Shown here piece by piece: positions 1 to 43,500 of a DNA stretch of 64,000 nt. Location: NCBI GenBank assembly GCA_021397835.1, contig JAJFZO010000165.1:1550001-1614000 (forward strand), in the 5' to 3' direction. Origin of the DNA: Moringa oleifera (Eukaryota > Streptophyta > Magnoliopsida > Brassicales > Moringaceae). The position numbers and the translations under genes are program-made. The notes beneath the pieces are model-generated. The model did not search any database, had not been told where the DNA came from, and saw nothing but the letters and a program-made list of their open reading frames with translations. Every line of letters begins with the position of its first letter. Within the stretch, counting starts at the first letter, position 1.

Positions 1-1716
1 GTATAGACACCTTCAAGCCATATTTATCGCCCTAGGCTTACCATTATTTCATTTCATTCTATTTATGGCCAACAAATATATACATGGAGCTATGTTGACT
101 TACATACGTTTCGCTGACCAAATGATTAGGTATACCATGCTACGTATCATTCCCTCTTTCTAAAAAAAAAAGGAAAGATATAATCATCATGCCATAAGAC
201 CTTGTTCGTTTCTACTTGATATTATTTTCTTCATTTTTTTTTTTTACATTACATGAGGTAATTTGTTTACTTAGCACTTGCGCTAAGGATCTAATCAGGG
301 TTAAACTGAAATTTAGAATGAAAATAACCTTTCCTTTATTATCTAGAGTACAAGTATACTCCTTGATCTTTATAAAGGCGAATTAAGCCAAAAAAAACTT
401 TTTTTGAAAGTATCAATGTCCTTATTAAGATTCTACAACATCTGGTGGTGCCCTCATGGGTACGTTCCTTTCTCGATCGCTTTTGTCTAATCGAAGTCAA
501 TTGACTCGTATGGAATACGGGGTGAGTTTCCACCAAGTTGATCGCTTGAGTCTACAAGCTACCTTTCCTATTCGCTTCTCTACAAGATCTACTTTTTTCT
601 TCCTTCAGATCAGACCAAGTCTTTAGTTTTAGTAGGTTAGAGATAGGTCATTGTGATCCTACTTGCCATCTCTTAGTAAAGTAAGTTGATGGCAAGCCCT
701 CTTTCTTTGTAATGGTGTAAGGCATTGGAGGCTGTTACCCTGTGGCTAATTCGAAGGAGTTGAAGTTTGACTTAGAGCTTTTTGGTTGTTAAGTTGTAGC
801 AGCACTAAGCAACATCCAACAGCTTTAGTCCTACTGGTTTGCAGTAAAGTGCCTTAAATAGCTCTCAAGGAGTCTATTTATTCTCTCCATCTGAGCTTTC
901 AATAATGTACTGATCATAGGTATCTTACCATTAGATACCGATTGTCATCTTCGAACCTTATTGACCTATAAATATTGTGTTTTCATTAATTTCACATAAC
1001 ATAAGAAAAAAGCTTTTTTCATCATTGAAAAAAACTATTATCTAACCACTTCCATTGCATTACCATAATAAGGGAGAAAAAAGAAAGATTACTCTTGGGA
1101 TTCAGAAATAACCTTTCTTTGTGGAGGAAAGGAATAGGGATAAACTCCTATAAAGCATCCAAGAATAAGAAGATTTAATTAAATGATGAATTCTTACGTG
1201 GTCCAAGGAAATCAAAGGTTGGCTTCCACGATTTCATCTATATTAAACCTTAATATCAAAATAGCTTATATAGTCATGATTCAATTCAGGTCCACTGACT
1301 TTTGATTTCTTTCTCATTTTTTGAATCTGATTGGAGCAATAAAGAAGTAAGAAGACTTTATCGATTCATAGTGTGTATCTAGAATATCTATGTCCTAAAA
1401 CATAAAATATGAACAATAAAACATGAGTATACCCTAAAGTGACAAAATAGTTCTCCTAATCCACCACTTATCATCATAATGAACATTTTACTTAAAAACT
1501 AAAAAAAATTTACTCGCCAAGCACTTTTTCTTTTCATATCTATGTTCACTGCTGAAAAAGAAAATGAAAACTAAGAGAGGACTTTCATATAAAATACATA
1601 AGTCCTTTATCAGTGATGACTGAGTCCTCTTTCTTAGGGCCTTCAGAGCGTGACTGTACCGCTTAGTTAAAGAGCCCATTTTATTCAAGTCATGAATTAG
1701 GCCACTATGAGTTTAC

Positions 1717-1718
<2 letters not shown>

Positions 1719-1757
<39 letters not shown>
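1719..1757. repeat. TA/CA microsatellite
   Basis: A run of TA dinucleotides that passes into CA repeats. The matching position in copy B (about 40,386) is a much shorter TA run, so the length changed after the two copies separated. Confidence 0.9.
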
Positions 1758-1758
<1 letters not shown>

Positions 1759-1874
1759 AAGAAAGTATATCATTCGTGTCTTTGTTTCAAGATGATGAAA
1801 CTAAATGGTTCAAATGAAATCCAACAAGAAAAATGAAATAATAATTTTATAACTGTATACCTCCTTTCGAGCTT

Positions 1875-1948
1875 GGGATTGAAGTTCAATTGGTTAGAGC
1901 ATTGCACTATCAAGGTGAAAGCTATGGGTTTGAGCCCCGTCAATCCTA
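1875..1948 (+). pseudogene. trnD-GUC: tRNA-Asp pseudogene of plastid type (copy A)
   Basis: The tract has the layout of plastid trnD-GUC: a 5' acceptor strand GGGATTG pairing with CAATCCT at 1,941-1,947, a near-perfect D arm, and a T arm ending in GAGCCCCGT. Decay is visible: the anticodon-stem pairs CCGCC/GGCGG are broken (now TTGCA/GGTGA) and the anticodon GTC reads ATC, so it could not decode Asp. Plastid-type trnD is a frequent resident of angiosperm mitochondrial genomes, which fits mitochondrial rather than direct plastid origin. The neighbouring sequence is not the plastid trnY/trnE cluster. It has a second decayed copy at 40,526. Confidence 0.87.
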
Positions 1949-4053
1949 ATCTAGGTACCGTAGGTTTTGATCAGTTCATCTCTTCATTTTCTGTGAATAA
2001 GAGAGATAAAGAGTAAGATCAAATTCCTAGCATGAGGATTCGTTTCACATTTCTCATTGGGAAAAGTGAAGTCCAAATGATAATAACTAATACCGATTGA
2101 TGAAGGAGAGACATATGTAGGTTAATATAATTGAGGGTGTCACTATATTCAGGATTCAAAGAGACAGCATATTGGTCTAGCTTTTTTGATTGTTCCTGAT
2201 CCATCAAATAGAGTAGTACAATTTTTTTTTTCTCAGGAGCATGTAAACTTAATAAAGTTTCCTCAATATAATACTTATTAGATTCAACCTACCAATTTTT
2301 CTAGCAAAGATTTTGTGTAACCTACCTGAGTGATTGGTGGCCATCTATCTGTCTTAGAAAAATGAATTGCACATTCGTCCTAGTCTAAGGAAATGGAATA
2401 CTAATAAAAGATCAATGATCAGCTCTAACTTCTTATGATTTGAGAATAGGAAAGGATGTAGAATGAAAAAAAAGAAAAAGAAAAACAAGATGATGAGATT
2501 ATATTATGGAAGTGCCGAGCATTTATTACTACCATATTGTTTATTCTAGTTTCTTTTGCTTTTTATTATTTAAAATATGAGTATAGTATAAACCTTAAGT
2601 AAAAATGATTCATTTGAATTAAACTTAAGTTTTTCCTTAGTTCTTTATATGAAATCCTAAATATAGGATTTAAAACCTATGTTTCCAACAATGACTAGCA
2701 AAAGAATGATGTGGAAAAGAGGGAATAGGATGCACTTAACTAATGTACTGACCAAACAAAGAAAGAGTTAAACCACTATCTGCCATTATAACTCTTAATT
2801 CTTACTTTTCTTGTTCTATGCTCGGGATCCTTCCCTCCCTAGGTACTAAAATTAGAATGGAAATTCTTTTGTAAATCCCCATTCATACCATCACCTTTAA
2901 CATTTTCCTTTTTTATTTCGTTTATAGGCATGAATATTAGGTTTATTATCAACAGTTTCTCTATATGAAAGCATGTAAGCATGCCTTCTTGGCTCCAAAA
3001 GAGGGCATATAATCAAAGTTATCCCAACTCAGCTGAGATATCAAATAAAAGTGGATTTATGTGTAACTACTTCTAGCTCTAGGAATCTATAAATGGATTT
3101 TTACGATAAAAATGTAGGCGAATGAATCGATGCCACCTATGCCAATGATAGAGTATGACATATGAGCTTAAACCCTTATGTGAGCTTACCTGCGCTAGCC
3201 TCCCTACACGTGCCGATGTTCGCTTCCCTCCCTCTTTTTTTTTTTTTGGCATACTTCACTAATTCCTTGTTTTAAGCAAGATTTCATTCCAGTTTCAGTT
3301 TCTATGAAATAACACATCTTTTCGCATGTAGCTCTACCTCTCGTCTTAGATCTATAATTTTTATTGCTTTAACACTTCCCCTTACTAAAGAAATATGACC
3401 AACAATTAGACAGATATGAGATGATCGATAGGGGTTCCTTATCTTGGAAAGTTTACAGGGGAAGTCTCTATTTAGATAACATAAAGGATGAAAATAAAGA
3501 ACGAACGCCCGACCCATGCATCTTGAGCAAAGAGCTAACTTAGAATGGAATGTATTTGAATAAAAGAACGAACTCAATTGAAGAATTACAATAGAAAAAA
3601 GACTTGTTTGAAAGAAAAGCAATAAAATCAAAAAGAAAATGGGAACCGAGAACAACAAAAAAGCAAAATAAAGATAAAAATCTTAAAAGCGAAAAATGGT
3701 AATGTAGTTGACTTGCTAATATGCTTATTCTAAGAATTCCTTACTACTTTTTATGTTCTCTATGGATTCTAGGTTAGGTACCTAAGTTAGTAATTCATAG
3801 GTAGGGAAGCCTAAGATAAAGAGTATTGAACCTTAATAAAAGCATAAGTCCCCCTGAAGCCTCATGCTCCTTTGGTGCGTTCTTTATTTCGTTCTTTCAT
3901 GTGCTTTCTGGAATAATAATTCTTCTTATACCATCGCTCAAAATGCGGACTTGCAGAGCTACTATAACTATAACATATAACAAGTAAGAAAAAAAAGTCT
4001 AGTTTGAGCACATGGACTAGAAGACTAGTAAAACATTTGAAACTGTAAACTTG

Positions 4054-27970: not shown

Positions 27971-28399
27971 CTAGGGTACACCCGTAAGGTTCTGTAAAGT
28001 TTGTCTTCCTAAACTAAGGAAGGAAGTGCAGGCAAGTGGTAAGGAAGAAGGGCACTTTGTACATATGAAAAAATAATCAATTTTAATGTGTAACCAATCC
28101 CCCTCTAAGTGATTCTGTACATAACTATGACAAGCATACCATGCCAAGAACTGAGTACTAGTGGAAGGGGAACCTAGGCATACTTTGATACTAAAGAACA
28201 AGGTTTTAAGTATATCAATGTAAGGAAAATCGATTCCCTGCTTGTACGTGGAACTAGACCTGAAAGTAGGGAAAAGTATGCACATATCCCACCTCATAGC
28301 CTTGAGAATGGAGAAACTACTATGAAGGGAATAGATGTTTAAGACACCTACAGTCGAGAGGCTGAAAAAGGATAACGGGCATGAGATGACCCTCTCCAC
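27971..28399 (-). other. Unrecognised open reading frame, 142 codons
   Basis: An uninterrupted minus-strand frame from an ATG at 28,399 to a stop at 27,971. The translation is rich in Ser, Leu and Phe with a mildly hydrophobic N-terminal part, and I recognise no domain. It lies in NUMT spacer just right of the copia element. It may be a former mitochondrial open frame that has by chance kept no stop, or a random frame; its length is on the edge of what chance allows in this AT-rich DNA. Confidence 0.25.
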
Positions 28400-29700
28400 A
28401 CATATTAGAGGATCATAGGAATACTTTACCTAGTTGTTAAGTGGAGGTTAGGTTCTTAACGTACATTTGAGGGTATGAAGGGACATAGGCTACGTAACCC
28501 AAAAGGGGCACTTAAAATACTATTTTTCAAGGTTTAGGTGGTTGTACTAAGTGCTCTCATAGGACTACTTTACCGTTGGTTTATTATTCCAAAAGTTATG
28601 AAAAAAAGAAAGCAATTTCTATATTCAGGAACCAATGGCCACTTAGATGCTAGCTTGTTGTGAATCATTTACAAGTAGCATGTCGATATTGACTGGTTGG
28701 TCCGAAGCTTAGTTGCTCGGGTGGATGTATATATTTTCCTTTTAGCCAAGTGCTAGTATATAGGCCAGTCATGGAATCCGAAACCGATTTACTAGCATAC
28801 TAAGAATAAAGAATTAGTTTTAGCAAACCTGGTGGTTTGATTGATTAGCACTCTTATAGGCTCATCTTTCACACAAATTCTTAGGGTCCCAAGTCCTGCA
28901 TCCACTAAGAACATTCTTTCCTTTAAGGGTAAAACTTTATAGTATTAGATGTTTCCACTACAAAAGAAAAAACTTGAATTAGATCTTGGAAATTGTCAAC
29001 TCAAATTGATGTTCATCAAAAGCATTTTTTTTCTTCCTTTTCTTATTGATCAAAAGCATCAAACAATGCTACATTAGTAGAAGTGATTTACCGCTTTCGC
29101 CTCACTAGGCTTCACCCCCCTTATATATAATAAAAAATGAGTCTTCTCCCCTCCCACTCCCTCTACTATAAGAAATCTGAAAAGAAAAATGAGTCTTTTG
29201 CCTCCCGTCCCCTTTATCAACTTTTTTTCCCTCATGGTTGTTTATCTTCACGTAATTTTTGAAGTTCTCAAAAAAAGGAAGAATTCTCATTAATTGTGAC
29301 AACCATTTACTGAAAGTTTTTGGGCAGTATTCCCAATTTTTTTTGGCTAAAATAGAGTCTGCCATTAGATGGTTTTAGCTTTACTCCTCTAACCAAAAAT
29401 GGCATGGGTTAAGTTCGACCATATGGGAAATAACCTGACTCTTTAGGGTGATCAAAGTTTTGATCTTATCGATGGGGGGTTACCACCTCATCTTTTTCCC
29501 AGCCACAAAGAAAAGTCTTGTATTGATTTTTTTAAAAGATTTTGTCCCTAATTTCTGATAGCAAAAAGAAGACCTCAAAAAGCGCAGCCCCTTCTTAAAC
29601 TTAGCCAGGCCTAAACAAGCCTATATATAAAGTTAAGTCCTCTAGGGGATTCTCTTTCATCGTAAAGACTAGCGTTTGATTCAAACAAATGAAGAGAAAA
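28400..29700. other. NUMT spacer, no recognised gene
   Basis: Sequence between the 142-codon frame and the nad3-cox2 chimera. A minus-strand frame at 29,105-29,365 (86 codons) has no recognisable motif. Nothing else is seen. Confidence 0.5.
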
Positions 29701-29712
29701 CATATAATAGTA

Positions 29713-30016
29713 AAGAAAGCTAAAATAAAGGTCTAATTTAAATGACCAGGTATAACATCACATTGACACCTGAGGAAGGTACAACCCAACTATGAGGTAC
29801 ATTAACAACTGTTACAATAATACGTAGATGAATGTTGGCTGGTATAACTACTATATTCTTTACTTCTAATAAATGTGATTGACCCAATTTACAGACTGAT
29901 AATTTTTTTTGGATAGGTCGAATTATTTCTAAAACATAGAAAAGAAAGACTAGAAGGATTAAAGAAACTAGTAGGCTGACCACTAAATAAATACAAATAG
30001 GTGCAAGTTTTGACAT
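29713..30016 (-). pseudogene. Chimera of nad3 5' end and internal cox2 segment
   Basis: Read on the minus strand, the ATG at 30,014-30,016 begins [20 protein letters not shown], matching the conserved start of mitochondrial nad3 (complex I subunit 3, inner membrane). One lost base then shifts the frame; the next frame gives NNSTYP, the following nad3 words, up to about codon 40. At about 29,889 the sequence switches to an internal piece of cox2 (complex IV subunit II): LGQ..LLEV, VV.PA..HLRIIVT and HSW.VPSSGV, ending after a degenerate NQTF near 29,713. The copper-binding motif region further downstream in cox2 is absent. Both original frames have mutated, although one 92-codon frame happens to run through both parts. 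Partial gene fusions of this kind are frequent in plant mitochondrial genomes and some cause male sterility; no such role is implied here. Confidence 0.88.
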
Positions 30017-30635
30017 TATAATTGCTTACTTTACTCTCTCGCTCCTTGCTAGTGAAAGTGGCATACCTAAAAAAGGAAACCCTTATCCTTCTTGCAGACA
30101 TAGGCAGGATGTAGGGAAAGTTAATGATCGAATCTTAATCCAAAATTTGGTCATGTCAGCCATGAAGTGATGAGTTTGGAGTAGCACTTCAATCAATATG
30201 GGATAGCAGAAGACCCAAAGTGGATAGTAGAAACTCCTTGTGTGAAGCAGAAGTAAGTACTACAGAGGCTACGAGAAAGACTTGAGGGTGATCTTGCATT
30301 ATTGCCTCACAAAGCCCTTTTGACTTTTTATATTTAATACTTTGTCTAGCCTCGGTCTTCTATAGAAGGAAAGCTTGTATCAAGTAAGTCAAAAGGAAAG
30401 ATCTCCAAAGATTCTTATCTTATTCCATTCTAGTGGCTAGACTAGCAGAGAGAATTAATGACACTTTTCCAGCTTGATAAACGAAGCTGAACACACTCAA
30501 TCACCTTATTTGCTTATCTTTTTCTTTCAACACTCGTTGATGGATCACAAGAAAGGATCCAAAAGTGAACTTCATTGCCCTAGGTCCTAGAGCTAGAATT
30601 GTGCACCAACCTGTAAAAAAAATTAGATCTCTTCT

Positions 30636-31112
30636 TTACACCGAAAAAGATGAAGATGGAATTCCTATGCACGAAGAAGACGAGCCAAGGTAATTGAATA
30701 CAAGAGGGACACCATTTTTAATAGTGCAATTCTCGATGGTTGAAAAAGAAGTAATGACATAGGCAGTTCCATAGTTGGTTGACTCCTTAACATGAGTAGG
30801 AGTTAATCCCACTTGGGAGCTCTGGATGTGCCCACAACTAATCAATGCATAAGGATCCATAGCACCTGAAGATGGGGAAGATGACCACAAAAGGTTAGGA
30901 CTTAACCCAACAATGAAGGAAGTATAAGTAGTTGAAGCATCCAGGTAGCTTGAAGAAAGCCCCAAAATAGTTCCATGAGTAGTAGCTTCGAAAGCATGTC
31001 TGTCAAAGAACAAGGGGCTTACACCTACCATAGAGGTTAAGTGGCAGGTCGAGGGTTTAAACCCTATAAGAGCAATGAATAAAAAGCCCATGGCTTTAGG
31101 AATTAAATTCAT
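30636..31112 (-). other. Unrecognised open reading frame, 158 codons
   Basis: An uninterrupted minus-strand frame of 158 codons, the longest outside the transposon. It begins MNLIPKAMGFLFIALIG, which looks like a short hydrophobic segment or signal-like start, followed by a Ser/Thr/Gly-rich part without charge clusters (for example GLSSSYLDAST and GLSPNLLWSSSPSSG). I recognise no family. It lies about 0.6 kb upstream of the nad3-cox2 chimera on the same strand. In a block where every known gene is broken, an intact frame of this length deserves note, but it may be chance, or a mitochondrial orf of lineage-specific type. Confidence 0.35.
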
Positions 31113-31119
31113 TTCCTAA

Positions 31120-34100
31120 ATAAAGGTGAGACTTTTAAAGTCACACTTTGACATGAAAGAACTAAAACAACCTTCACTTAAGGCAGAGAATAAAGATAGG
31201 TGGCCAAGCACTACTTTCATTCAAGCTATGCAGGTAAAGATCCAAAAAGGATTTTATCATTAATAGCCACTTTTAGTTAGACATGAGTGGGGAACTAAAA
31301 ATGAAGATAGCTTTTTACCTACAACTGATTACCTGTTGGATGCTTCGCAAAGAGCCCTTTAATAGAAGAGGGTGGCTCAAGTGATATGGCTTACAAGTTG
31401 CATGTCTAAGAGAAATATGAAAGAGGGCTAGTTTCAAGGATAAAAAATGAGCAGAATGGTAGCTTATTATTAATACTCAAAAAGCCACTCGTGCTAGTCT
31501 TTCAACTACTAGGTCAAAAAAGAAAGAATGTCTCCCTCTTTTGACGAATAAGCAAGCATCGACTTCTTTGACTTAATAAAAATGGAGTCCAAAGATGAGA
31601 TGATGCATTTTCTATATTCCCCCAATAATAGAGAATATTCCTTATTCTAATGCACTTAGGACTATTGTGATTTCATCAGAAAAAGTTGAAATCGATAGCA
31701 AGGGCGAACAGCTACTAAACAGCGAGACAAGAGAAAAAAAAAAAGATGGTCAAGGTCCTTAAGAAAGGAATGTGCTAGTACAATTAGGGAAGTCAAGTGT
31801 GACCAAAGATTGTATGATTTAGCCCCAAGAGCAATGCTGATTGAGGGGGAAAAAAAAGGAAAATTCCTCTTTTCTAAACTGATGACATCAAAAAAATAAG
31901 CTATTTTTACTTTTGTGTGAAGTAATTACGTAGGAGGTACCGCCCAAGCCCCATATTTTTTCTTTATAAAGTTTTAATGAGAACCAAAAGAAGAACCTGT
32001 TTCTTTGTTAGGTAAGTTAGGCCAAACCCCACTTTATTTAAGCATTGAGCTGGCAGAAAGCCTTATTCAATAATGGGAGTCGTCAAAGCCTTAAGCTTCT
32101 GAGCTGAGGAAAAGCCTAATCTTATGGCGTAAAAAGAAAGAGCTACTATTAGAGGAGCCAACATTGTCTTCTTAAAAATGCCATTAGTTCTGGCCTTAAT
32201 CTTGCTAGGTAACTAAATAATCGATTTAGGAATGGTAAAAAGAACCATAAAAGGGAATTCCTTTACTGGATCAAAGTGCCAATTGAAGAACTTTACAAAT
32301 TGGACGTTAATGACCAAGATCAAGCAATTCGACTATAGCATCACTTACCACATCTTATGGGATCATCATCCATTCGAATGTCTTTTTTATTAGTAATCCT
32401 CGATACAAATTTTATGCATAGGAAAAAAAAAGAGATCTTTTTTATACAAGAGCAGAGTATCTCAAAAAAAGAAAACTTTATTTGCTTATTTAGCGTCTAG
32501 GGGACCATATTAGAATGAATAAAGCCTTAGAGGATAGTCTTGTAAGCAACTCTTTCAATCCACTAGGAGTTGAGACTTATTAATGCTGGATTACAAAGCC
32601 TTTCAGTAGCAAAACCCTTCACTAAGTACCTCACATAAAGTCTATGTTTCTAACACATACCAAGTCAAATTTTGTAAGTAAACGACTGAGTTAGAGGCAG
32701 GATAGCCCAAGCGCTTTCCTTTTCTAAGCTTTTAACTCTGATTTCATTCGACTAAAGCCTAACTTTCATTAACTAAATCTACCTATTTTCATACTTGAGC
32801 CTGACTTAAGTTAATTACTTAATCAACCATGTTAGAAGGAAGAGAAAGCTAAGTGCATTTGGAAAAAAGAGAATGTCTCTTTATTTGACCTCATTCTAAT
32901 TCATTTATTTTCTAACTTGATACTTGAAGGGAAAACTACTATTTTAGGTGGAAACTCCGTCAAAATGGAAGAAAGAGAATGAAATTCCTATCTTACTTAT
33001 TTTCCCTTAGACTAGAGTGTTGTTCAATCAACTAAGTCCCTCTAAGGGCAAGTTCGGGATTCAAAAGACTAGAAAGATCTTACCACAAGCAATCAATATT
33101 GTGACCAAATCAAAAGACATTATCATAAATTCAACATGGAATTAGAAAGACTAGTTAAGTTGAGCAAATAAAATGTTACAACACAGCACTGAGGAAGAAC
33201 TGTACGAATAGGGGAATCTATTTTAGCTTCTTTAAAACTGTATTTTTGGTTAAAACTCATTATGTAGATAAAGCTCCTAAAAACGATAGGTATCTCTTCT
33301 CTTAACATAATTTTATACAAGGAAAAATGTAATTCAAATTGATTTTACGATTGTTTGCTTCCATTTCATCTATTCAAATATAGCTGCTTTGTTTATTTAT
33401 TAAAGTTATAAAGATTTTAGCATTTCGGTTGGTACTTTTTTTTTTATTTGTTGGAATCAATTGTGCAAACGAACTCAGTGTTGACATCATCTTAGGACAC
33501 CATTGTGACGATGTAGGTAGAAATGTTAGCATGTGCTCCCTTACTATTTAAAAACTTCTTCTTTCTCCTATCTTTTGCTTGACTCTTAATGCTGGAAGGC
33601 AAGATGAACCTATGAAATTCACTTCTAATAAACATACAGCATTCTACTTCGAAGGTTTGTAATGAATGGAAAGCATACTACAAATGAATATATAAGCATT
33701 CCACCTATAACAATACAATAAAGGGATGGGAAGATCCCTAGAAAAAAAGTCACACCTTATATCTAAGTCGAGGAGGCATAAAGCAATAAAGAAGCTATAG
33801 TAATGTTGTTTACACAACTAGAAAGCTAGTCCTGCCCCCCCACCCCCCCCCCCCTTTGAAGATGAGTGAACAATTGATCTGTCTTGGGAAAAAACTTTGG
33901 CTATGATTCAATCTCAAAAGCCCAGACTTCATAAAATGTGACTAACTTTTCCATTGCTACTTGAACCATCCGCTCCTTTTCCAATGCTGCTTTTGTATAA
34001 GTGAATCAATCTTTGTGATTCAATCAATTTGATTCTCGTTCTCACCTCGAGTTAAGAGATACCTTAAGAATAATGAACAGTGAAAGTAGAATCTTTTTTA

Positions 34101-38514: not shown

Positions 38515-40525
38515 TTGTCAAGACACCCTTGAGCCATATTCATTGCCCTAGGCTTACCATTATTTCATTTCATTCTATTTATGGCCAAAGAACATATGCA
38601 AGGAGCTACATCGACTTACTTATGTCTCATTGACCAAATGATTAGGTATACTATGCCATATATCATTCCCTCTTTCCATAAAGAAAAAAAAAGATATAAT
38701 GATTATGCAGTAAGACCTTATTCGTTTTTACTTAAAGTTATTTTCCTTAATTTTTTTTTTACATTGCATAAGGTAGCTTGCTTACTTATCGCTTGCTTGA
38801 GGATCTTATCAGAGTCAAATTGAAATTTAAAATGACAAAAAAACCTTTCCTTTATTAGCCAAAAGTACAACTATACTCCTTAATCTTTAGTAAAGAAGGA
38901 TTAAACCAATTTTTTTTTTTTTTAAAGTGTTAATGTCCTTGTTGAGAGTTGCTTTGCAAAAGGTCAATTAATCTCTGACTTGGTCTTCAAATTGTAAGTT
39001 TTAGCCATTCCAGCTTGTCTCACTCTCAAGTTGGCCCTTCCACTTCACTAAGTAGTGTTTCTCTCACGTAGTATGTGTAGGGGCTAGGCCATCGCAATGC
39101 CTGCTATGATATAGTTAACTTCTTCTTTAGTAGGTTCATCTATAACATTTGATGGTGCGCTCATGGGCAAGTTCCTCTTTGTGTTGGTCTAGTCTAATCG
39201 AAGTCAATTGACTCACATGGAATGCTAGGTGAGTTTTCACCAAGTTGATCACTTAAGACTATAGGCTACCTCTCCTACTTCTTTACAAAATCTGCTTTCT
39301 TCTTCGTTCAAATCGGGCAAGCCTTTAATTTAAGTAAGTTTGGGATAAGTCGTGCGATCCCATCTGTCACTTCTTGGTGAAGTAGGCTAATGGGTGGGCC
39401 CTCTCTTTTTGCAATGGTGTAGAGCATTAGAGCTTTTTGGTTGTTAAGTTAGAGCAACACTAAGCAACATCCAACATTTCTAGTCCTTGTGCTTTGCATT
39501 AAAGTGCCTTAAGTAGCCCTCGAGGAGTTTGTTTATTCTCTTTATCTAAGCTTTCAAAGATATACCGATTGTAGGTATTTTACCATTAGATATCGACGGT
39601 CGTCTTCTAACATTATCGACCTTTAAATATCGCATTTTCATTAATTTCATATAACATTTTAAAAACAAGCTCTTTTCATCATTAGAAACAATCAGATTTT
39701 GATCTCTTGCATTGCATTAACATATCCCAAAAAAAGAAAAAAAGATTACTCTTGTGATTTGGAATGAACCTTTCTCAGTAAAGAAAAGGAATAGCAAGAA
39801 ATTCCCATGGAACATCCAAGAAGAAGAAGATTCAATCAAACGAGGAATTCTCACGTGGTCCAAGGAAATTAAAGGTCGGCTTCCACGATTTCATTTATAT
39901 TGAATCTTATTAACAAAATAGCTTATATAGTCATGATTCAGTTCATGTCCACTGAATTTTGATTTCTTTCTCATTTTTCAAATTTGATTGGATCATGGGA
40001 GAAGTAAAAAGACTTTATCGATTCATAATGGGTATCTACAATATCTATGTCTTAAAACATGAAATATGAATAATGATACATGAGGAGGAGTATACCTTGA
40101 AGTGACACATCAGTTCTCCTAATTGACTGCTTATCATCATAATGAATATTCTACTTAAAAATTAAAAACCACTACTCACTAAGCATTTTTTTTTTCATAT
40201 CTATATTCTCTATTGAAAAATATAATGAAGATTAAGATAGGAATTTCGTATAAGATATATGAGTCCTTTATCGACGATGACTAAAGCCTCTTTCTTAGGG
40301 CCTTTAAAAAGCGTGATTGTACCGCTTAGTTAAAGAGCCCATTTTTATTCAATTCATGAATTAGCCTACTATGAGTTTATTACATTTATATATATATATA
40401 TATAATAACAAAAAATTATATCATTTATGTCTTTGTTATAAGACAGTGAAACTAAATGGTTCAAATGAAATCTAATAAGAAATAAGAAATAAGAATTTTA
40501 TGGCTGTACACCTCCTTCAGAGCTT

Positions 40526-40597
40526 GGGATTGTAGTTCAATTAGTTAAAGCACTGCCCTTCAATGTGAAGTAGTGGGTTCGAGCCTCGTCAATCTTG
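40526..40597 (+). pseudogene. trnD-GUC: tRNA-Asp pseudogene of plastid type (copy B)
   Basis: The equivalent of the copy A gene at 1,875. It starts GGGATTG and has an almost intact D arm and T arm (GGGTTCGAGCC, better kept than in copy A), but bases are lost in the anticodon arm (CTGCCCTTCAATGTGAAG where CCGCCCTGTCAAGGCGGAAG is expected), so the anticodon loop cannot form. Copies A and B carry different damage, so they decayed separately. Confidence 0.86.
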
Positions 40598-43500
40598 ACC
40601 TAGGTACCATAGGTTTCGATCAATTCATCTTTCCTTTTTTTATGAAGAAGAGAGACAAATAGTAGGATCTAATTCCCAACGGGAGGATCCTTCTTTCGTT
40701 CCTCATTTCTCATTAGGAAAAATCAAATCGAAATGAAAGACATATGTAAGTTAGTACAATTGGGGGTATTACCATATTCAGAATTCAAATCGATAGCCTA
40801 CTGGTCTGGCTTTTTCGATTGTTCCTGATCCATCAAATAGAGTAGCACAATTTCTTTCCTGAAGCACATAATTTTTTTTTATGATATGCAATTAACTTAA
40901 AAGAGTTTTCCCAACGAAATACTTATCAAATTTAACCTAACCTCTTTTTTTCTAGCAAAGATTCTGTGCAACATATATGGTTAATTGGGGACAATTTATC
41001 TATTTAAGAAAAATGAATTGCACACTGGGTCCTCGATGTATTCGTCCTAGTGTAAGGAAGTGGAATACTAATAAAAGATCAAACATCCATTCTAACTTCT
41101 TGTGATTCGAGATTGGGAAGGGATATCAATGAATACGAAAAAAGACGATGAGATTATATTATGGAAGTACTAAGGATTTATTGCTGCTGCATTGTTTATT
41201 TTAGTTTCCACTACTTTTTATTATTTAAAATATAAGTATAGTATAAACCTTAAGTAAAAATGATTCATTTGAATTAAACTTGAGTTCTTTGTTAGTTCTT
41301 TATATGAAATCCTAAACATCAATTTAAAACCTATGTTCCCAACAATAACTAGCAAAAGAATGATGTGAAAAAGAGGAAACAGGAAGCGCTTTGCTGATGT
41401 ACTGACCAAACGAAGAAAGGTTTAAACCATACATGCCAATATAACTATTAATTCTTACTTTCCTTCTTCTAGCTTGGGATCTTTCCCTCCTTAGGTACTA
41501 AAATTAGAATGAAAATTCTTTTTAAATCACCATTCAAATCATCATCCTCTAACTTCTTCTTTTTCTTTTTTTTTGTATTTTTTCTATAGGTATAAAATTA
41601 GATTTATTATCAAGGGCTCCTTTATATGAAAGCATGCAAACATGCCTTCTTGGCTCAAAAAGAGGGCATATAATCCAAGTTATCCTAGCTCGACTGGGAT
41701 ATTGAATAAAAGTGGATTTGTATGTAACTAGCTCTAACTCCAAGAATCCATAGATGGATGTTTAAGAGAAAAATGTAAACAAATGAATTGATGCTGCCTA
41801 TGCCAATGATAGAGTACGACATATGAGCTCAAACCTTTATGTGAGCTTACTTGCGCTAGCCTTCCCACACGTGCCAATGTCCCCTTCACTCTTTTATCTG
41901 TTTCTCATATATTTCAATAATTCCTTATTTTAAGTAAGGTATCATTCCAGTTTTAGTTTCTACGAAAGAACACATCCTTTTCGCACATGGATGCACCTCT
42001 TGTCTAAGATCTATGATATTTATTACTTTAACATGTGCTCTTACTAAAAAGATGTAACCGATGATACAGATAAATGTAATATGATCGATAGAGGTTCCCT
42101 ATAATGGAAAGTTATAGGGGAAGTCTCTATTTTAATATCATAAAGGATGGAAATAAGGAACGGGCACCCAGCCCATGAATCCCAAGCAGAGAGCTAACCT
42201 AGAATGAGATGCATTTGAATAAAAGAACAAACTTAACCGAAGAGCTACAATAAAAAGAAGACCTAGATTTAGAAGAAAAGAAGCAAAATCAAAAAGAAAA
42301 TGGGAACCAAAAACAACAAAAAGCGAAATAAAGGTAGAAATCTTGAAAGCAAAAAAGGGTAACGTAGCTGATTTGCTGATATGCTTATTCTAATAATTCC
42401 TTACTATCTTTTATATTCTTTGTGGGTTTTGGGCTAGGAACCTAAGTTAGTCAATCGTAAGGGGGGGTGAGGGGAGAGGGGCAGGGGGGAAGCCAAAGAC
42501 AAAAAGTATTCAACCTTAATAAAAGCTTAAGTCCCATCGAAGCCTTATGCTCCTTAGCTACGTTCTTTATTTCATTCTTTCATGTGCTTTTTGGAATAAC
42601 AATTCTTTTTATACCATAAGGCAGATCCATAGAGCTACTACAACTATAAGATATAACAAGTAAAAAAAGAAAAAGCCTATTTTAAGCATGTAGAAGGGAA
42701 GACTAGTAAAACATTCAAAGTTGTAAACTCACAATATATATAAGATATTAAGATGGAATATGAACGAAGGATTGAAGCATCTGATAGGGCTCTTGAGATG
42801 AATACCAAAAGGGCTTATAGGATGCACCATCGACCTTAGATAGGTTGACCAGGTAGGGAAAGAACTTAAAAGAAGTAAATGTAGTAGGTCTGTAAAAAGT
42901 AAATACCAATGAAGACCAGACTTGGAATTTCAAACAAGAAAACATAGTAGCCTAGTCGGGGAGGGAGATTATCTAGCTTCCTCCTTGTTTTATATATATA
43001 GTTGAAAATAAAGTGGAAAACTAAGCTTTAAAATCAAGCCCAAAAAATGATCCTTTTTCAATCTTGACCCATTCAAGCCATGAAAGTGACCTTTCAAATT
43101 ATAAAAGGTGGCCCTTGAGACCCTTCCTTGGGTTGATCAAAGAGCTACCAACAAAAAGGTGAAGGCATGGTTCAAAAAAAAAAGCTATGGATAGTTGGAA
43201 AAATTAGAGACTAAAGATTAAAACAAAACATCCATTTTTTTTTTTTTGAAAAGACAGAAATGAATGTGGATGAATGGAACCAATGTTTTGAAAAATTCCA
43301 ATACCATAAGTGAATTCAACTTCTATTTTGTATGGATTTTTTTACCTTCACAAAAAATCTAAAAGGGAATGTATATTGAATTATAGAAATTAATGAAGAT
43401 GTACTTTTTTCTGCTGCAAGGCAAGAAAGATAGGAACTAATTCAAGACAATCATTTGTGGATGAGATAAGTATGACATATTCCAGGGATCGATCTATCTC

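Follow-up and report, generated by a model that had tools for sequence, protein, structure and literature searches.

Cytoplasmic male sterility (CMS) genes usually carry a membrane segment and part of a respiratory gene, a combination that is not sufficient by itself. In rice, WA352 is reported to cause pollen abortion (PMC13326993, PMC11182578, PMC8073397); it contacts COX11 (extract of PMC13326993), and plants from which it was deleted regained pollen viability and seed set to varying extents (extract of PMC11182578). One ancestral ORF284b with COX11-interaction regions is given as the source of the C-terminal parts in WA314, WA352 and ORF314, and ORF314 is from a non-sterile rice variety (extract of PMC8073397), so that a WA352-type domain alone is no sterility gene. 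In Petunia, Pcf (orf402) joins atp9, cox2 and urfS, the nearest layout in the table of a review (extract of PMC11312923). Here we describe a nad3-cox2 chimera in a 64,000-nucleotide stretch of Moringa oleifera DNA, hereafter the window (contig JAJFZO010000165.1, positions 1,550,001 to 1,614,000; G000:C519:1550001-1614000 within a 279.5-Mb assembly of 669 contigs). We conclude, with a probability of roughly 0.85, that the window feature is a decayed nuclear copy of mitochondrial DNA (NUMT), derived from a three-part chimeric gene whose intact form is still in the mitochondrial genome.

Like Pcf, the chimera has a respiratory-gene 5' end, a cox2 part and a third unidentified frame, but its head is nad3 and not atp9, and the likeness is one of layout. 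The heads of rice WA352 (WA352c) and of the ORF284b / ORF312 / orf352 group are rice orf segments, whereas here they are nad3 and cox2; COX11 contact and sterility are features of WA352 and at most candidate ones of the present locus. No published nad3-cox2 chimera appeared among the papers listed, judged mostly by titles and abstract openings. Through this locus, a chimera of mitochondrial genes is linked to a rice male-sterility protein that has been studied in depth. The genome keeps the intact gene, in what appears to be organelle DNA, together with roughly twelve nuclear copies that differ in age. Most views of chimeric orfs are snapshots of the present; this genome offers a way to measure how long they persist and to test whether many of them go back to one domain family.

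The window copy and its intact counterpart

The window copy lies on the minus strand. The ATG is at 30016, preceded by a nad3-derived leader (30017..30074) mapped from the copy on contig C537, where homology with the nad3 leader reaches back to some 59 bp ahead of the ATG. Codons 1-43 of nad3 (29887..30016) cover the first membrane helix and the start of the next loop, and an internal cox2 piece with a Pfam COX2 match follows at 29722..29890. The preliminary description, made from the window alone, had placed the switch from nad3 into an internal cox2 segment at about codon 40. The third part (29232..29721), which corresponds to codons 99-261 of the intact gene and is broken here, comprises a hydrophobic segment, a Pro-rich linker and a WA352-type helical domain. 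The window reading frame meets a stop at 29738-29740, and relative to the intact gene there are seven stops and five single-base indels. The whole segment 28824..30359 (minus) is colinear with C537:196876-198561 at 84.1% identity over ungapped columns, and C>T/G>A changes make up 70% of the differences. Such a mitochondrial copy outside the organelle, with stops, frameshifts and decay of nuclear type, including a CG/CHG bias over the 11 aligned copies pooled, is a NUMT. The GC content of the window is 28-38% in 2-kb blocks.

On C537 the same gene is an intact ORF of 261 codons (197318-198103), with nad3 codons 1-43, cox2 to about codon 98 and a third part of 163 codons, open past cox2, that had escaped the preliminary description. 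This open frame of nad3, cox2 and tail makes it a chimeric plant mitochondrial ORF. It holds no complete COX2 or NAD3 domain: the Pfam COX2 match covers positions 32-91 of 120, nad3 contributes codons 1-43 alone, and Pfam and NCBIfam scans of the chimera returned nothing beyond COX2. The cox2 piece covers part of the copper-domain fold and stops short of its cysteine ligands. The protein has a computed mass of 29.3 kDa and hydrophobic stretches at residues 1-31, the strongest, and 93-119; 19-residue hydropathy windows of at least 1.6 start at residues 1-13 and 93-101.

We infer that C537 belongs to the organelle itself, because its GC content is 43.5-45.7% (in the 10 of 20 blocks read that are without masked bases) and the frames of rps7, nad3, rps12, cox3 and cob are undecayed. 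On this contig 197,500 bases beyond the first 110 kb were read, of which 45,000 are masked; on C527, which bears cox2, 20 kb were read. The preliminary description had suggested that the chimera may be the fossil of one since lost from the mitochondrion, which would survive in the nucleus alone. The window copy is indeed old and broken, as that view would have it. However, an undecayed copy stands on C537 among undecayed mitochondrial genes, and we reject loss from the mitochondrion as very improbable.

The joint and its parent genes

Both parent genes are present in the same genome: nad3 at C537:157380-157564 and cox2 at C527:129003-129172, the latter in an undecayed frame of 308 open codons (Pfam COX2 positions 1-112 of 120). 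Over its cox2 piece, the C537 chimera agrees with this gene at 169 of 170 positions, the last letters of the piece being CTCTATTTT. Aligned at the joint, nad3 reads TACGAAT|GTGG, cox2 CTAGAAT|TGGG and the chimera TACGAAT|TGGG, with exactly four bases, GAAT, common to both parents. In the window the word (29887..29890, minus) is AAAT. The earlier proposal of GAAT plus a G-to-A change was thus correct, since the C537 chimera and its own parents show GAAT. With both parents and the intact product found, the joint is neither chance nor a misreading; it is not chance because at least 13 of at least 34 own-genome matches cross it. Random blunt joins would show 4 bp or more of shared sequence in about 1.6% of cases, so that microhomology joining is likely, as judged from a single event. 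The same shared word, in the parents and in the C537 chimera, supports the earlier suggestion of short-homology joining inside the mitochondrion.

Alternatively, two separate insertions could have been end-joined in the nucleus, the case that the preliminary description had named as its refutation. Mitochondrial arrays in this nucleus are rearranged, which would speak for such joining. Yet the same joint occurs in the undecayed C537 copy and, gap-free, in all 11 aligned nuclear copies (GAAT unchanged in 8 of them), and a ginger protein has it at the protein level. Nuclear joining does not fit these facts and was rejected; we give it practically no weight. At two more nuclear loci, L010 and L011, the sequence keeps to the cox2 region of C527; these are copies of true cox2.

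The predicted ginger protein (Zingiber officinale LOC122037867, P0009) reads SAYE-S-GQ against SAYE-L-GQ at the joint and also has ALF after the cox2 end, but differs by an atp1-like start in front. C-to-U editing alters single codons in plant mitochondria, and the L/S difference is what an unedited codon would give. In P0003, from a 446-kb contig, nad3, cox2, a hydrophobic segment and a tail that aligns with ours follow each other, although the stretch at the nad3-cox2 joint is divergent. P0036, a Rhododendron cox2 with a C-terminal tail, keeps cox2's own start in place of nad3. In both, cox2 ends at about the same residue as here, and in P0036 too a hydrophobic segment and an aligned tail come next. 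At the protein level, common descent of the nad3-cox2 joint is likely. The tail of the ginger protein gave no match to WA352-type tails (hhalign E 0.47) and is not recognisably a WA352 relative.

The third part and the WA352 family

The tail matches WA352 in profile comparisons (A3, 2e-8; A4, 1.5e-7; A6, 1.7e-5; A5, 0.0075), 5ZT3 being the sole match for A3 up to E 1 and for A5 and A6 up to E 10. A single-sequence search was negative, and a Foldseek search with the model reached E 0.001 in none of its 36 matches (E up to 10). By its profiles the tail is related to the WA352 family; the structural comparison points the same way, and the tail may have the fold of 5ZT3. Twelve database proteins have a related tail (39-75% identity). 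PF26057 is precomputed for some relatives and was absent from the Pfam scan made here. On C537 itself a second chimeric ORF (118039-119121, minus) joins a cox1 start to a tail of the same superfamily.

The preliminary description had noted a likeness to male-sterility chimeric orfs, which is stronger than it knew, because the third part proves related to WA352. The chimera combines a respiratory-gene part (nad3 and cox2) with membrane segments, and by analogy its layout, a respiratory head with a short nad3 leader, a membrane segment and a WA352-type domain, is that of CMS genes. We infer that it would be transcribed and its product located in a membrane. It could then be an active or silenced CMS determinant with a WA352-like action, its protein contacting an assembly factor of the COX11 type in anthers; the layout speaks for this, as do the contact of WA352 with COX11 (extract of PMC13326993) and the differing recovery of rice pollen viability and seed set after WA352 removal (extract of PMC11182578). 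Nevertheless, the tail is only 24% identical to WA352 in structural alignment, and the role is a candidate one. We hold this determinant to be possible but rather unlikely, and both a COX11 contact and a male-sterility effect to be doubtful.

The chimera may instead be a neutral by-product of recombination, untranslated, with a tail of a kind that is simply widespread among the orphan ORFs of plant mitochondria; we put this at about an even chance. WA352-type genes share segments with the non-sterility rice orf314 (extract of PMC8073397), C537 bears the further, cox1-headed chimera with a related tail, and of the three usable ORF differences that, C>T/G>A aside, separate C537 from most of the older nuclear copies (I/M, N/K, silent), two change the amino acid. 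Against neutrality, the frame of 261 codons is intact on C537 and the related tail recurs in the 12 database proteins. With three usable differences, no conclusion on selection can be drawn.

We speculate, tentatively, that the mitochondria of flowering plants have long carried the WA352-type domain as a mobile module, repeatedly re-headed by respiratory genes, each product being a potential male-sterility gene. The cox2 piece might serve as a recombination hook, and the nuclear arrays as a dated record of which chimeras were carried and for how long. The heads would be nad3-cox2 here and the cox1 start on C537; other records would add rps12-cox2, an sdh3-like start and the start of cox2 itself. 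By eye, a further ORF on C537 (206297-206881, minus) has an sdh3-like start running into an unrelated frame, with no Pfam match at E 0.01.

Nuclear copies and their history

The own-genome search gave counts that are lower bounds. Besides the window and the C537 copy, 11 further joint-crossing matches lie on C518, C519 and C585. Eleven of the 12 nuclear ones, the window included, were aligned (C519:1519228 was left out), and all 11 are broken. Ten are 83-85% identical to the C537 copy and the eleventh, L003, 90.1%. C>T/G>A changes account for 66-77% of the differences and, pooled over the 11 copies, affect 613 of 1422 CG, 560 of 1436 CHG and 774 of 5293 CHH sites. With C>T/G>A and T>C/A>G left aside, changes amount to 0.035 per site in the window and 0.017 in L003.

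L003 lacks several transversions that 8-10 of the ten older copies share. Pairs within {L004, L017, L023}, {L006, L019} and {L005, L008} share 28-29 transversions, all other pairs 0-19, and the window copy shares 1-6 with any other nuclear copy. Because of this pattern of sharing, the sequences suggest at least two waves of transfer followed by duplication within the nucleus.

Read in register with the intact gene, codon 214 is a stop in all 11 aligned copies. We take it to be a C-to-T hotspot, because all six of the 13 relatives with a residue there have Arg (seven have a gap), and an older, shorter form of the gene was set aside on this account. At codon 250 the first position is T in all ten older copies, five of which have a stop; the column varies in the relatives, with Arg or Lys in 4 of 13, and none ends there. 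From this T, the gene may have been about 12 codons shorter when the older transfers occurred.

From the observed joint, the intact ORF beside undecayed mitochondrial genes and the decayed nuclear copies, we propose the following history. In the mitochondrion, the nad3 5' end (about 59 bp of leader and 43 codons) would have been joined at GAAT to an internal cox2 piece, which would lead into the hydrophobic segment and then, at the C terminus, a WA352-family helical domain. A 29-kDa protein of the inner membrane is the predicted product. The chimera would then have entered the nucleus within mitochondrial DNA, probably in two or more waves, where the copies would have been partly duplicated, methylated and decayed by C-to-T change.

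Neighbouring segments and other organelle DNA

Downstream of the chimera, at about C537 198561, the neighbour switches to a segment matching C527:103991-104509 in 6 of the 11 nuclear copies, including the window (28300..28823), while the other 5 stay colinear with C537. Because of this division, the copies fit two mitochondrial DNA arrangements around one chimera.

On the other side, the window departs from the C537 order at 30359/30360, before the 158-codon ORF (30636..31115, minus) that the preliminary description proposed to look for beside the same junction. This ORF belongs to a different segment and was rejected as a partner of the chimera. Within 30370-31200, the first 76 bp matches C527, and longer matches lie on C518, C519 and C41; the best 26 candidates scored hold 51 matching pieces, the longer ones mostly 69-83% identical. 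Among these best candidates none came from the searched C537, part of which was masked. The segment is perhaps mitochondrial DNA since lost, or sits in masked or unscored parts.

Elsewhere in the window, 196-3813 and 38712-42470 are both about 85% identical to C537 207.2-211.0 kb, one segment present twice, and 1875-1948 gives an Rfam tRNA match (44.7 bits) and none by ARAGORN. Mitochondrial sequence recurs over about 1 Mb on each of the nuclear contigs C518 (7.93-8.89 Mb) and C519 (0.97-2.13 Mb, surrounding the window); there the same segments are repeated in many diverged forms, as very large mitochondrial-DNA arrays. Many nad3/ndhC-family matches, spread over 0.4-1.2 Mb each, lie on C522 (1.96-3.11 Mb), C563 (2.59-3.68 Mb), C49 (6.2-6.6 Mb) and C3 (0.69-1.58 Mb); these would be plastid ndhC, in probable large plastid-DNA arrays. 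Finally, C537 carries a long inverted duplication at about 237-259 kb and 282-304 kb, with what appear by eye to be retrotransposon pol frames.
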